Of a stretch of DNA of 64,000 nt, positions 2,838-7,723 are shown piece by piece. The stretch spans positions 1 through 64,000 of the forward strand of contig DASUWA010000054.1 in NCBI GenBank assembly GCA_036378675.1, in the 5' to 3' direction. Source of the stretch: Acidimicrobiales bacterium (GTDB taxonomy: Bacteria > Actinomycetota > Acidimicrobiia > Acidimicrobiales > Palsa-688). The notes below the pieces were generated by a model that ran no database searches, was not told where the DNA came from, and saw only the letters and a list, made by a program, of their open reading frames with translations. Positions within the stretch are counted from its first letter, which is position 1. Every line of letters begins with the position of its first letter. A program made the position numbers and the translations under genes.

Positions 2838-3343
2838 ACGATGAACATTTCCCGCCAGTTGCTCAACTTCTCTCTCGCCTGGGTCGGGGCCAGCTTGAGG
2901 GTTTGGAGACGCACGGCGTCGACGATTTCACGCTGGTCCCAGTAATGCTCCGCTGCACCGCGGAACATCGGCTTCCGCCATCCGATCAGGTCGTCGGGGG
3001 CGCCCCCGAGATAGCCCCACACCGTGTACGCCCACTCCATGTCGTAGATGACCGGTGCTCTGCCGAAGTGCGCCGCCCGCCGCGATCCGCAGGCGAAGCA
3101 CCCCGCGATCACGTCCTTGGCGTGCTCCCCCGCAGTGAGGATCAGTTTCGGTTCGAGCCGCCGGGCAAGCTTCAGCCCGTAACCGAGGTCCGGCCCGGTG
3201 GAGCCGAACCGTGGGCCTTCGGGCGGCGCCAGCGTGGTCTCCTCGGCCGGCCTGTCCTGGTACCACGGCACGGGTGGCGGCAGCAGGGCGGATGGGCGCA
3301 CCCGATCGGATGCCTGGACGGGAACGTGGGCGGGTTGGCTCAC
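2834..3343 (-). CDS. hypothetical protein between cimA and acyl-CoA ligase
   Basis: 169 residues, no family I recognise. The N-terminal 45 residues are Pro-rich and probably disordered. The rest is compact, with a GCFACGSRR segment (two Cys separated by two residues) and a Trp/Tyr-rich stretch around YDMEWAYTVWGYLGG. No signal peptide or membrane segment is evident. It is locked between cimA (4-bp overlap at its start) and the acyl-CoA ligase (4-bp overlap at its end), which is good evidence that it is real and made with them. A single CxxC is too little to claim metal binding. Function unknown. Confidence 0.7.
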   Translation of the reverse strand: MSQPAHVPVQASDRVRPSALLPPPVPWYQDRPAEETTLAPPEGPRFGSTGPDLGYGLKLARRLEPKLILTAGEHAKDVIAGCFACGSRRAAHFGRAPVIYDMEWAYTVWGYLGGAPDDLIGWRKPMFRGAAEHYWDQREIVDAVRLQTLKLAPTQAREKLSNWREMFIV

Positions 3344-5037
3344 GAAGGTTGATTCTGCTGGGCGTCCGCGCCGTGCAGCAACCCGAACACGATCGAGTCC
3401 TCGAGTGCGGCCCAGGAAGCCTCGATGACGTTCTCGGACACCCCGATGGTCGTCCAGGTCCTCTCGCCGTCGGTCGAGTCGATCAGCACTCGGGTGATCG
3501 CTGCCGTGCCCCGGCTGGTGTCCAGAACCCTGACCTTGAAGTCGGTCAGGTGCACGTGGGCGAGCTGCGGGAACACGGGACCGATCGCCTTTCGCAGCGC
3601 GGCGTCGAGAGCGTTGACCGGACCGTTGCCCTCAGCGGTTGCAATCACCCGGTCGTCGCCGACGACCACCTTCACCGTGGCTTCGGTGACGAACGTCTCG
3701 TCCTCGCGGAGCTCCGTGATCACCCGGTGGGACTCGAGGGTGAAGAACGACTGCTTCCAACCCGTCGCGGCCCTCATGAGAAGTTCGAGCGATCCGTCGG
3801 CCACCTCGAAGTGGTACCCCCGATGCTCGAGGTCCTTGAGCTGCTCGACGATGCCGGCGAGCAGATCGTCGTCGAGCGAGAGTCCGAGCTGCTCGGCTTT
3901 CAGAGCCACGGTCGATCGCCCGGCCATCTCGCTCACGACGAAGCGGGTCCCGTTGCCGACCGACTCCGGGTCCACATGTTCGTAGGCGTCGCGCTGCCGG
4001 GCGATGGCGCTGGTGTGGAGTCCGGCCTTGTGGGCGAACGCCGAGGGGCCTACGAACGGCTGATGCGGGTCGGGAGCGATGTTGACGACCTCGGCAATGT
4101 GGTGAGCGACCGAAGTGAGCCGGGGCAGCCGTTCGCGCCCGATGGTCTCCACTCCCATCTTCAGAGTGAGGTCGGGGACTGCCGCGGTGAGGTCGGCGTT
4201 GCCGGTGCGCTCCCCGTACCCGTTTATGCAGCCCTGCACCTGGGTCGCCCCCATCCGAACTGCCATGAGGGAGTTCGCGACCGCGCAGCCCGAGTCGTTG
4301 TGGAAGTGGCAGCCGATCGACGTCCCACCGTCGAGTGCGTTGCGCACCTCGCCAACGACCCGCTCGACATCGAAGGGGAGACTTCCCCCGTTGGTGTCGC
4401 AGAGCACGAGCACCTCGGCCCCGGCGCCGGCGGCGGCCTTGAGGACGTCGGTGCTGAATCCGGGGTTGGCGCGGTAGCCGTCGAAGAAGTGCTCCGCATC
4501 CAGGAAGACCCGCCGGCCCTGCGAGCGCAGGTAACCAATCGAATCCGCCACCATGTCGATCGCTTCGGTCAGGCTGGTCCGCAGCGTCTCGGTCACGTGC
4601 CACTCGGCCGACTTGGCGACCAGGCAGACGGCAGATGTCTGCGCGGCGAGAAGGTCGGCGAGTACCGGATCCGTGTCCGCCCGGCCCCCGGCCTTGCGGG
4701 TCGACCCGAATGCGACGAGTGTCGCCGTCTGCAGCTGCAGGTCGCCTGACGCTGCCCGGCGAAAGAACTCGGCGTCCTTCGGATTCGCCCCCGGCCAGCC
4801 CCCCTCGATGAACTGCACGCCGAGGTGGTCGAGTTGCTCGGCGACGCGCAGCTTGTCGTCGACGGTGAGGGACAGGCCTTCCTGCTGGCTCCCGTCCCGG
4901 AGAGTCGTGTCGTAGATATCCACTCTGCCGATCAGCCCGGACGGGGCCCCAACCCCATCCTCCTCCCGAGCGTGGGGCCCCACCCCCACGCCGGTCCGTG
5001 ATGCAGAAAGCTGGGTATGGCTGTGGTCACCCGACAT
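3340..5037 (-). CDS. cimA: (R)-citramalate synthase
   Basis: 565 residues in the DRE-TIM metallolyase family. VDIYDTTLRDGSQQEG opens the TIM barrel, HFHNDSGCAVANS carries metal-binding His residues, and a C-terminal LeuA-type allosteric domain follows (about residues 425-550). CimA condenses pyruvate and acetyl-CoA to citramalate, the entry to threonine-independent isoleucine synthesis. LeuB and IlvE, encoded immediately upstream, act later in that route. It overlaps ilvE by 11 bp. The first ~37 residues before the conserved barrel are odd: part of them (GVGVGPHAREEDGVGAP) is encoded by a GC-rich palindromic repeat also present upstream of rnhA. The true start could be further in, since several GTG codons lie in this segment. 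The related alternative, 2-isopropylmalate synthase, is less likely from the QQEG motif and the overall CimA-type sequence. Confidence 0.9.
   Translation of the reverse strand: MSGDHSHTQLSASRTGVGVGPHAREEDGVGAPSGLIGRVDIYDTTLRDGSQQEGLSLTVDDKLRVAEQLDHLGVQFIEGGWPGANPKDAEFFRRAASGDLQLQTATLVAFGSTRKAGGRADTDPVLADLLAAQTSAVCLVAKSAEWHVTETLRTSLTEAIDMVADSIGYLRSQGRRVFLDAEHFFDGYRANPGFSTDVLKAAAGAGAEVLVLCDTNGGSLPFDVERVVGEVRNALDGGTSIGCHFHNDSGCAVANSLMAVRMGATQVQGCINGYGERTGNADLTAAVPDLTLKMGVETIGRERLPRLTSVAHHIAEVVNIAPDPHQPFVGPSAFAHKAGLHTSAIARQRDAYEHVDPESVGNGTRFVVSEMAGRSTVALKAEQLGLSLDDDLLAGIVEQLKDLEHRGYHFEVADGSLELLMRAATGWKQSFFTLESHRVITELREDETFVTEATVKVVVGDDRVIATAEGNGPVNALDAALRKAIGPVFPQLAHVHLTDFKVRVLDTSRGTAAITRVLIDSTDGERTWTTIGVSENVIEASWAALEDSIVFGLLHGADAQQNQPS
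4939..5000. repeat. GC-rich palindromic repeat inside the cimA N-terminus
   Basis: About 60 bp of alternating C and G runs, with a palindrome GCGTGGGG / CCCCACGC and an adjacent GGGGCCCCAACCCC block. It closely matches the segment at about 44887-44948 between rnhA and aceE (same order of blocks and same TCCTCC spacer). Here it is translated in frame as part of CimA. Both copies were compared by eye. Confidence 0.75.
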
Positions 5038-5950
5038 GTTCGGCCCAGTCCTTGTAGCGGTCGACCTTGCCGCGCACTGCGGAGTGGAAGACGTCCTGGA
5101 TCTGGCGGGTCATCGGGCCGGGTTTGCCGTCGCCGACCTGACGGTCATCGACCGAAGCGATCGGCACGACCTCGGCTGCCGTCCCGGAGAGGAACGCCTC
5201 CTCCGCGACGTACAGATCCGAACGGAGGATGTTGCCGACTTCGACCTCGAAGCCCAGGTCCCGGGCGATGGTCATCACCGAGTTCTGGGTGATGCCCTCG
5301 AGCGCGCCTGCAGCGAGCGGCGGCGTGATGATCTTCCCGTGCCTGACGACGAAGATGTTCTCCCCGGTGCACTCGCTGACGTAGCCCTGGGGTGACAGAA
5401 GAATCGCCTCGTCGTAGCCGGCTTTCAGCGCCTCTACCTTGGCCATCGAAGAGTTGATGTACATGCCGGTCCCCTTCGCGGCGGGGGGAAGGGCGTTGGG
5501 CGCGTGGCGCTGCCAGGAGCTGATCTTCATGCGAACGCCGTTGGCAATGCCCTCGTCGCCGAGGTAGGCGCCCCACGGCCACACGGCGATCGAAACGTTC
5601 ACCGGGCAAGGAAGGGGATTCAGGCCCATCTCGCCGTAGCCGAGGTAGACGATCGGCCGGATGTAGCACTCGGTCAGGCCGTTGACCCTGACCGTCGTCT
5701 TGGTCGCCTCGATGATGTCCTCGGCGCTGAAGGGGACGTCGATCATGAAGATCTTCGCCGAGTTGAACAGCCTGACGATGTGGTCGGTGAGCCGGAACAC
5801 CGCCGGGCCGGACTCGGTGGGGTAGGCGCGAATGCCCTCGAACACGCCGCAGCCGTAGTGAAGGGTGTGGGTGAGGATATGGATACGGGCGTCGTCCCAA
5901 TCGACGAGCTCCCCGTCCATCCAGATCTTCTCGGTCTTGGTGATCGGCAT
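5027..5950 (-). CDS. ilvE: branched-chain amino acid aminotransferase
   Basis: 307 residues, class IV PLP-dependent aminotransferase. HTLHYGCGVFEGIRAY lies near the N-terminus, the PLP Lys is about residue 159 in PPAAKGTGMY, and the phosphate-binding SECTGENIF follows. It performs the final transamination of Leu, Ile and Val. I chose the internal ATG at 5950 rather than the longer frame up to 6061, because AAAGGG lies about 12 nt upstream, homology begins at PITKTEKIWMDG, and the longer start would overlap leuB by more than 100 bp. The gap to leuB is 4 bp and its end overlaps cimA, so leuB-ilvE-cimA is one operon. Confidence 0.95.
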   Translation of the reverse strand: MPITKTEKIWMDGELVDWDDARIHILTHTLHYGCGVFEGIRAYPTESGPAVFRLTDHIVRLFNSAKIFMIDVPFSAEDIIEATKTTVRVNGLTECYIRPIVYLGYGEMGLNPLPCPVNVSIAVWPWGAYLGDEGIANGVRMKISSWQRHAPNALPPAAKGTGMYINSSMAKVEALKAGYDEAILLSPQGYVSECTGENIFVVRHGKIITPPLAAGALEGITQNSVMTIARDLGFEVEVGNILRSDLYVAEEAFLSGTAAEVVPIASVDDRQVGDGKPGPMTRQIQDVFHSAVRGKVDRYKDWAEHVG

Positions 5951-5954
5951 CGAC

Positions 5955-6956
5955 TTACACCCTTTCTGCGATGGCGTCGCCCACCTGGGTGGTCGACAGT
6001 TCAGGTCCCGGTGCGAAGGCCGAGACCGCTTTGGTGATTCGGGAGGCGGCGTCGCCGGCACCCAGGAAGTCCAGCATCATGGCGGTGGATACGATTGCCG
6101 CGGTCGGGTTGGCCTTGCCCGTGCCGGCTATGTCCGGAGCGGAACCGTGGACGGGCTCGAACATCGAAGGTCCTGTGCGATCCGGATTCAGATTGCCCGA
6201 CGCAGCCCGGCCGATTCCGCCGGCAATCGCTCCACCCAGGTCGGTGAGGATGTCTCCGAACAGGTTGTCGGTGACGACCACGTCATAACGCTGCGGGCTC
6301 TCGACGAAGTAGATGCACGCCGCGTCGACATGGTTGTAGGCAGTGGTCACGTCCGGATATTCGAGCGCGACCTGATCGAAGGTACGTTGCCAGAGATCGC
6401 CGGAGAACGTGAGCACGTTGGTCTTGTGCACGAGAGTCAGGTGCCTCTTCTCGCGGGAGCGGGCCAGGTCGAACGCGTAGCGCACGCATCGTTCGACGCC
6501 TAACCGGGTGTTTACCGATCCCTGCGTGGCGACCTCGTACGGTGTTCCCCGGCGAAGAAAACCACCCTCCCCCGCGTACGTTCCCTCGGTGTTCTCCCTG
6601 ATGACCGAGAAGTTGATCGGCACACCCGCGCCGACACTTTTTTCCGAAACGAACGGCCGGAGGTTCACGTACAGATCCAGCTCGAAGCGCAACCGCAACA
6701 GCAAGCCCCGCTCGAGCACCCCAGGCGGTACCTCCGGCGTGCCGATCGCCCCGAGGAGGATTGCGTCGAAGCCCCGGAGCTCTTCCAGGACACTGTCGGG
6801 CAGGACGTCACCGGTTTCCAGGTACCGGCGGCCGCCAAGGTCGTACTCGGTTGTGTCGAGCTCGGCCCCCGCCGCCCGCGCGACCTTCAATCCCTCGGCG
6901 ATCACCTCGGTTCCGATCCCGTCTCCGGGAATCACGGCGATCTTGTAGGCGGTCAC
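5955..6956 (-). CDS. leuB: 3-isopropylmalate dehydrogenase
   Basis: 333 residues of the isocitrate/isopropylmalate dehydrogenase family. [16 protein letters not shown] is the N-terminal nucleotide/substrate motif, [13 protein letters not shown] the signature loop, and [16 protein letters not shown] the C-terminal cofactor region. It oxidatively decarboxylates 3-isopropylmalate for leucine and, in the citramalate route, 3-methylmalate for isoleucine; the presence of cimA in the operon makes a dual role likely. It is the first enzyme gene after a leader with an Ile/Val-rich peptide and a terminator hairpin, so the operon is probably controlled by attenuation. A tartrate or malate dehydrogenase of the same fold is the main alternative, but context favours LeuB. 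Confidence 0.92.
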
Positions 6957-7041
6957 TGGTCTGTCGGCTCCTGTTCGTTCTTGTTTCTGCCTGTATTTCT
7001 GGCGGTGATTGAGTTTTCTGACGGTGGTTGAGACACAAAAC

Positions 7042-7063
7042 GACCGTCCCCTCGGGGACGGTC
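7042..7063 (-). terminator. terminator hairpin in the leuB leader (candidate attenuator)
   Basis: Perfect 10-bp inverted repeat GACCGTCCCC / GGGGACGGTC with a 2-nt spacer, followed on the minus strand by GTTTTGTGTCT. It lies upstream of leuB, transcribed in the same direction, and greA is divergent, so it cannot be a gene-end terminator for either neighbour. Confidence 0.75.
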
Positions 7064-7069
7064 CACGAA

Positions 7070-7097
7070 GCGCATCGGCTTAGGTGTGCCGATGCGC
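7070..7097 (-). promoter_or_regulatory. second leader hairpin, possible pause structure
   Basis: Perfect 10-bp inverted repeat GCGCATCGGC / GCCGATGCGC with an 8-nt loop, transcribed just before the terminator hairpin. Its first base overlaps the stop codon of the leader peptide, so a ribosome at or near the Ile/Val codons would interfere with its folding. I could not identify the competing antiterminator pairing by eye. Confidence 0.6.
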
Positions 7098-7150
7098 TAC
7101 ACGATAATTACGATCTGTGCGGCGGGTGGGACGTTGCAAATGCGGTTCAC
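7097..7150 (-). CDS. leuB operon leader peptide, Ile/Val-rich
   Basis: A 17-codon frame starting with GTG: MNRICNVPPAAQIVIIV, then TAG. The last five codons are Ile-Val-Ile-Ile-Val (ATC GTA ATT ATC GTG), followed at once by two strong hairpins and then leuB-ilvE-cimA. This is the layout of ilv/leu attenuators, where starvation for a charged branched-chain tRNA stalls the ribosome on the control codons. Weak points: no clear Shine-Dalgarno, and a TTG 27 codons before the stop is an alternative start. Seen directly: peptide, hairpins, T-tract and position. Inferred: attenuation and which amino acids are sensed (Ile and Val; no Leu codon in the run). Confidence 0.65.
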   Translation of the reverse strand: MNRICNVPPAAQIVIIV

Positions 7151-7238
7151 GGTGTCACCAGTTTCGCTCAAAGGCGGTCTGAAATCAACCACGGGGCGGC
7201 CGGCGAGCAGCCCTGTGAGGTTCTGCAGCGAGCGCCAC

Positions 7239-7252: not shown

Positions 7253-7723
7253 ATGGCTGCCACGCATCTGACTCAGGACACCTACGACCGGCTTCAGGCC
7301 GAGCTCGAGGACCTGCGCACCCGCGGCCGCATAGAGATCGCCCGGGCGATCGAGGCGGCCCGTGCCCTCGGCGACCTTTCGGAGAACGGCGACTACCACG
7401 CCGCCAAGGACAGCCAGGGCAAGATGGAGGCTCGCGTCCGCCAGCTCGAGGCGATGCTGCGCGACGCGGAGATCGTGTCAGGCGAAGCAGGCGCCGAGGG
7501 CGAGGTCACCACCGGTGTGGTGGTGGCTTTGCGTTACGCCGGCGACGACGACGTCGAGCGCTACCTGATCGGTTCCATCGAGGAGCGCCGGGAGGGTGTG
7601 TCGGTTATCTCGCCGAACTCGCCGCTCGGTCAAGCGCTCATCGGCCGGCACCAAGGCGATCGGGTTTCCTACGAGGCTCCGAGCGGAGCGCAAGAGGTGG
7701 AGATCGTCGAAGTCGGTGCCTGA
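7253..7723 (+). CDS. greA: transcription elongation factor GreA
   Basis: 156 residues, close to the usual 158. An N-terminal coiled-coil hairpin carries LGDLSENGDYHAAKDSQG near residues 39-56 (the acidic-tip region that enters the RNA polymerase secondary channel), and a C-terminal FKBP-like domain carries SPNSPLGQALIG. GreA stimulates transcript cleavage by backtracked polymerase. I chose the ATG at 7253 because conserved sequence starts there; the frame upstream covers the divergent leader. Its last codons and stop form the first unit of a 15-bp tandem repeat that runs to the next gene. Confidence 0.93.
   Translation: MAATHLTQDTYDRLQAELEDLRTRGRIEIARAIEAARALGDLSENGDYHAAKDSQGKMEARVRQLEAMLRDAEIVSGEAGAEGEVTTGVVVALRYAGDDDVERYLIGSIEERREGVSVISPNSPLGQALIGRHQGDRVSYEAPSGAQEVEIVEVGA

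Follow-up and report, generated by a model that had tools for sequence, protein, structure and literature searches.

The element analysed here lies on the minus strand between greA and leuB of an Acidimicrobiales bacterium (assembly GCA_036378675.1, contig DASUWA010000054.1), within a window of 64,000 nucleotides that comprises the whole stretch of DNA analysed. Its features and the surrounding genes are as follows:

7183..7188, minus strand: putative -35 box, TTGATT, read from the sequence (TTGAC(G) in most relatives)
7160..7165, minus strand: putative -10 box, GAAACT, the end of the hexamer lying 9 nt from the leader start codon
7097..7150, minus strand: leader open reading frame of 17 codons, MNRICNVPPAAQIVIIV followed by the stop, from sequence and comparison
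7103..7114, minus strand: control codons -5 to -2, ATC GTA ATT ATC (Ile Val Ile Ile), from the codon statistics of leuB leaders
7069..7098, minus strand: hairpin 1, a perfect 11-bp stem with an 8-nt loop, whose foot is the A of the TAG stop
7064..7068, minus strand: 5-nt linker from hairpin 1 to the terminator (mostly 2-5 nt in relatives)
7042..7063, minus strand: intrinsic terminator, a conserved 9-bp stem with a 4-nt loop, GACCGTCCC...GGGACGGTC
7032..7041, minus strand: T-rich terminator tail, GTTTTGTGTC, read from the sequence
5955..6956, minus strand: leuB, 3-isopropylmalate dehydrogenase, the first controlled gene (NF002898 equivalog, 506 bits against a cut-off of 393)
5027..5950, minus strand: ilvE, branched-chain amino acid transaminase (NF005146 and TIGR01122, over cut-off)
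3340..5037, minus strand: cimA, citramalate synthase (TIGR00977, 660 bits against a cut-off of 450)
7253..7723, plus strand: greA, the divergent neighbour, from the list of open reading frames

The names of leuB, ilvE and cimA follow from NCBIfam equivalogs that score over their cut-offs. LeuB, IlvE and CimA work in the citramalate route to isoleucine, and IlvE acts for valine too; the link to this route drawn by the first-pass annotation is supported. Because greA is divergent and the terminator faces leuB, this terminator cannot close an operon lying further upstream. The leader begins with GTG (7150-7148), runs for 17 sense codons and ends at TAG (7099-7097), directly preceded by ATC GTA ATT ATC GTG (7114-7100). 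The 17-residue leader with an Ile-Val-Ile-Ile-Val end before leuB-ilvE-cimA is thus present as first described, except that the five branched-chain codons, said to end one codon short of the stop, in fact reach it. The tandem hairpins are likewise there, but their stems, described as two perfect 10-bp helices, are of 11 and 9 bp.

The window carries a putative promoter, TTGATT-17-GAAACT, and the corresponding pattern TTGAC-17-NANACT is kept 5' of the leader among relatives. The attenuator reading of the first-pass annotation supposes that transcription starts upstream of 7042, and this is where the conserved putative -35 and -10 boxes stand. Where the -35/-10 match of a leader is strong, the start codon mostly lies 6-10 nt past the -10 hexamer, and the RNA is therefore expected to start with that codon or slightly ahead of it; the leader mRNA is accordingly predicted to be leaderless or nearly so. 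Sequence comparison finds both the leader reading frame and its start codon kept among relatives, and the leader is predicted to be translated.

Conservation was assessed by reading directly the regions upstream of 30 leuB orthologues from the same taxonomic order, chosen by synteny and terminator and not by codons. The layout between greA and leuB is kept in 26 of the 30, and both the peptide and the hairpins persist in relatives, the comparison for which the first-pass annotation had called; beyond their last five residues, the leader peptides of these orthologues have little in common. A covariance model built from the 26 leuB leaders finds matches (E≤0.01) in 234 of the 395 Acidimicrobiia genomes sampled, many of which have two, and the remaining ~40% have no match at that threshold. 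Among the latter are several reduced genomes from a single genus (family f20, genus g42), which may have lost branched-chain attenuation or may only fall below the score of this model. Directly downstream of the 176 instances examined stand LeuB (130), IlvB (23) or CimA (23), and no other gene. Within a phylum sample of 396 genomes, ilvB (8) or cimA (2) follow outside the class among the 12 matches read. Two weak phylum matches, L291 before an isocitrate-lyase-like gene and L296 at a small open reading frame before a pheA-like gene, were set aside as probable chance. The former (genome G445, contig C2, about 100355) has stop-foot tandem hairpins with a short reading frame ending ...SALRRSVSAS-stop, and could represent a leader of a different kind or a chance resemblance. 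Two similar leaders from other actinobacterial orders, SLVIIG... in Actinomadura viridilutea (L224, 3930-4035) and AATITD-stop in Allobranchiibius (L238, 3860-3975), lie 3' of leuB and probably before cimA.

Searches against Rfam 15 returned no match at gathering score anywhere in the window and none at the ilvB, cimA and leuA loci tested, and the leader itself met only sub-threshold matches to unrelated small RNAs and cis-regulatory elements. One of these, to Atu_C8 (E 0.004), was taken as a coincidence of tandem hairpins.

The codons at the end of the leader match the operon that follows. Counting backward from the stop, with -1 as the last sense codon, Ile, Leu or Val occupy 83, 83, 78 and 92% of positions -5 to -2 in leuB leaders (n=117), against 17% at -6 and 13% at -1, with the proviso that the covariance model was trained on leuB leaders, so that codon statistics of later finds are partly dependent, whereas the seed set and the leuA set are independent. 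Leu makes up just 0-3% at the control positions of these 117 leaders. In cimA leaders (n=23), Ile stands at 78, 100, 100 and 91% of positions -5 to -2, with no Val or Leu, while ilvB leaders (n=20) have Ile, Leu or Val in 100% of these positions, with GTA at -4 in 20/20 and Leu in 65% at -5. The leuA leaders, which were found by geometry and not with the covariance model, carry Leu in 24/24, 24/24, 23/24 and 14/24 cases at -2, -3, -4 and -5, respectively. Each operon type thus has a run of codons for its matching amino acids (Ile/Val, Ile, Leu/Val/Ile or Leu), and the early suggestion that the leuB leader senses Ile and Val, not Leu, holds. No such leader was found at ilvD in six genomes, and some leaders are poor, with only two or three Ile/Val codons (for example, ...VASIP in L022). 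Codon choice is also distinctive: GTA accounts for 50-79% of Val codons in leaders versus 8% in eight genes of the window, and ATT for 46% of Ile codons in leuB leaders versus 7% in the same eight genes. This preference for rare codons at control positions agrees with the theory of selective tRNA charging (PMC1183508).

Two further leaders were seen in the same genome. Its ilvBNC leader (L061, contig C62, 8151-8240, minus strand) reads MSTALVLVLIT-stop, with Leu, Val and Ile codons, the terminator GACCTCCC..GGGAGGTC and the same architecture, and its leuA leader (L315, 1300-1420; contig C5, about 65960-66080) is Leu-only and ends LLLLM-stop. Across the leuA loci (L314-L403), hairpin 1 is highly conserved, GGCGAGCACC..GGTGCTCGCC, and the 3' arm of the leuA leader terminator looks like a ribosome-binding site.

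The arrangement also exceeds what chance would produce. The stop-anchored stem of the 117 leuB leaders scores 26.7, compared with 7.1 after shuffling, and the native stem exceeds all 30 shuffles in 110 of them, with similar margins in the other leader types; significance was taken from this shuffle test and per-position covariation was set aside, the stems having been picked per sequence. The first-pass annotation's judgement that chance hardly explains the codon run is upheld. In addition, a scan blind to codons, requiring a stop codon, a stem starting at the stop and a close terminator, was run over 1.23 Mb, about 30% of the same genome, with the ilvB locus deliberately included; the leuA site turned up in a stretch of general contig sequence as well. 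Strong matches occurred only at the leuB, ilvB and leuA sites, the remaining matches being weak and having no codon run, and shuffled sequence gave 0.

These observations bear on two explanations in which charged tRNA plays no part. T-tailed tandem hairpins are also found at gene ends generally, and the element might be read as an ordinary tandem terminator next to a chance run of hydrophobic codons. Yet the site is flanked by divergent genes, with nothing upstream requiring termination, is kept across families with operon-specific codons and, in the part of the genome scanned by geometry, recurs only at branched-chain amino acid operons; conservation rules this explanation out, and we give it practically no credence. 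Alternatively, the conserved C-terminus, of the form V-x-V/I-I-P/T/V, could be sensed in the exit tunnel as an arrest peptide, a reading to which the leaders finishing in Ile-Pro-stop, a slow-termination context, lend some weight. However, the residue before the stop varies freely, and the identity of the run switches by operon (I only, L only, V/I), exactly as sensing of charged tRNA predicts, which makes nascent-peptide arrest very improbable.

The position of hairpin 1 relative to the ribosome is constrained. With the first P-site nucleotide counted as +1 and codon -2 placed in the A site, hairpin 1 has its foot at +12 in 101 and at +11 in 35 of 160 leaders (136/160 together). In bacteria, 11 nt of mRNA beyond the first P-site nucleotide fit into the ribosomal channel, and stem-loops 11-12 nt from the P site impede binding of tRNA to the A site (PMC7282821). 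A ribosome waiting at codons -5 to -2 would therefore leave hairpin 1 intact, whereas one step past codon -2 would begin to unwind it, which fits the sharp edge of the control window between -2 and -1. Among phylum-wide ilvB leaders, placing the last branched-chain codon in the A site puts the foot at +11 (7) or +12 (14) in 21 of the 23 leaders placed, where feet from +7 to +21 were allowed, a branched-chain run was required and 12 further leaders were not placed. The distance holds although the stop codon lies up to 34 nt away, and it is unchanged in mycobacteria-like and Streptomyces-like ilvB leaders, whose reading frames continue into the hairpin. Thus, the conserved quantity is the distance from control codon to hairpin and not that from stop codon to hairpin.

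On the strength of sequence comparison, then, the leader, its codon specificity, hairpins, geometry and conservation are established. The element is real, looks functional and behaves like a ribosome-mediated transcription attenuator by every testable feature. The attenuator reading that the first-pass annotation had given for 7042-7150 is borne out by the conserved leader, codons, hairpins and terminator, and we consider it very probable that the element senses charged tRNA-Ile and tRNA-Val and controls leuB-ilvE-cimA by ribosome-mediated attenuation of transcription.

In the mechanism that we infer for its action in vivo, RNA polymerase would start a short mRNA at the leader start codon or a little ahead of it, followed by a ribosome translating the 17-codon leader. 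When Ile or Val is scarce, the ribosome would wait at codons -5 to -2, and hairpin 1, its foot at the mRNA entrance, would stay folded beside the terminator, allowing read-through into leuB. When Ile and Val are plentiful, the ribosome would instead reach codon -1 and the stop and unwind hairpin 1, whereupon the terminator would fold and transcription would end. For the last step of the ON state, we propose a steric effect, because no conserved pairing that sequesters the terminator turned up. The 5' base of the terminator stem would have to sit inside the RNA exit channel, where a 10-bp helix backed by the ribosome and only 2-5 nt away would leave no room to complete the terminator base. That a ribosome-braced hairpin 1 excludes the terminator in this manner is put forward tentatively, with confidence somewhat short of even. 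The fuller version, with no base-paired antiterminator at all, in which the hairpin at +11/+12 both brakes tRNA entry at the last control codon and sterically blocks the terminator, is possible but a little more doubtful; frameshifting stem-loops at that distance provide a precedent for such a brake (PMC7282821). One consequence counts against the steric proposal, namely that if hairpin 1 alone served as antiterminator, untranslated RNA should read through, unlike in E. coli trp.

The main rival to the steric step is a weak or type-specific competing pairing, as would occur in a classical overlapping attenuator, where one arm of the terminator has hairpin 1, the 3' arm of that hairpin or the codon region as its partner in the ON state, on the model of E. 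coli trp or of the displacement model of C. glutamicum ilvBNC, for which the published scheme has an antiterminator overlapping the terminator. The leaders studied here have no base common to hairpin 1 and the terminator, which are separated by a gap of mostly 2-5 nt. Partition-function folding with the 5' arm of hairpin 1 masked does pair the terminator 5' arm with the 3' side of hairpin 1 slightly above shuffles in leuB leaders (0.48-0.52 versus 0.37-0.39), and a U opposite G, forming a U-G wobble, is retained in the terminator 5' arm of 22/26 leuB seeds, but the same folding gives no enrichment in ilvB or cimA leaders. Nor did a duplex search of both terminator arms against three upstream regions (the leader, the 5' arm with loop and the 3' arm with linker) yield anything better than shuffled sequence, and when hairpin 1 is extended outward into the terminator arm, native leaders do not exceed swapped controls. 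Three computational tests therefore reveal no conserved antiterminator of the trp type sharing a terminator arm, apart from the weak signal confined to leuB; the antiterminator pairing that was not obvious by eye in the first-pass annotation is not found by computation either, and we regard an overlapping attenuator as rather unlikely. Still less probable is a protector logic in which a ribosome stalled on the leader masks the 5' arm of hairpin 1, so that the freed 3' arm disturbs the terminator, hairpin 1 being the protector of the OFF state. The 1:2 hairpin of E. coli trp acts likewise, and folding predicts that untranslated leader RNA forms the tandem hairpins. Against this, hairpin 1 at +11/+12 lies just outside a ribosome at codon -2 and further off for -3 to -5, codon -1, where invasion would occur, is no control position (13% I/L/V), and the freed 3' arm has no conserved partner.

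We note that the terminator stem is frozen per operon type (CCGTCC at leuB, CCTCCC at ilvB, GCCGCCC or CCCTCCGC at cimA); judged by its sequence, it is more conserved than a terminator needs.

The ribosome-mediated attenuator proposed here would extend the attenuation proven for actinobacterial ilvB to a class-wide set of up to four operons (leuA, ilvBNC, leuB-ilvE-cimA and cimA), in which one architecture is re-coded for exactly the amino acids that each operon makes, a natural experiment on codon specificity. The +11/+12 spacing of control codon and hairpin raises the testable question of whether a ribosome and an adjacent hairpin can block intrinsic termination without competing pairs; if true, the +12 rule would hold across the phylum as a principle by which actinobacterial branched-chain attenuators are built. 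Candidate leaders at actinobacterial ilvB and leuA were put forward in 2005, with leuB and cimA not reported there (PMC1262725), and a search of the open-access literature, outside which most subscription papers fall, found no report of such an attenuator at leuB or cimA. The attenuators of leuB and cimA, called undescribed in the first-pass annotation, are new as far as that literature shows, but the principle is known at actinobacterial ilvB.

The nearest proven relatives are the attenuators of M. tuberculosis ilvB1 and C. glutamicum ilvBNC. The M. tuberculosis ilvB1NC attenuator shares branched-chain control codons (there LVVI), an intrinsic terminator and an ON state assigned to a stall before a hairpin, and changing LVVI to AAAA abolishes induction (PMC13236596). 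It differs in that its target is ilvB rather than leuB-ilvE-cimA, that only Ile and Val are read here, and that it is not leaderless, its leader of 166 nt being described as unusually long (PMC13236596). The +11/+12 hairpin distance is common to mycobacteria-like ilvB leaders, but their reading frame enters hairpin 1 and ends within it or past it; in the window, by contrast, hairpin 1 has its foot in the stop codon. The C. glutamicum ilvBNC leader, or ilvB-II motif, is likewise a short branched-chain leader peptide with a GUA control codon and a terminator (PMC11857589, PMC10272879), in which Val-to-Ala changes abolish Val-dependent control and RNA synthesis begins one nt from the start codon of the leader (PMC11857589), next to which the leader in the window is predicted to be leaderless or nearly so. 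That motif is restricted to its genus and to ilvB, and it is explained by a three-hairpin model with overlapping terminator and antiterminator, an overlap not found here. The candidate actinobacterial ilvB leaders similarly place short branched-chain-rich reading frames by terminators, and a Leu-run reading frame stands at leuA (PMC1262725). However, the LEU element was described as a pseudoknot of Leu codons and the leuA ribosome site with no attenuator terminator (PMC1262725), in contrast to the stop-foot hairpin and terminator of Acidimicrobiia leuA. As in the trp and his attenuators of E. coli (PMC1183508), control codons lie shortly before the stop and the position of the ribosome at the stop would set the fold; there, the 2:3 and 3:4 hairpins share segment 3, whereas hairpin 1 and the terminator of the present element stand side by side with no segment in common.
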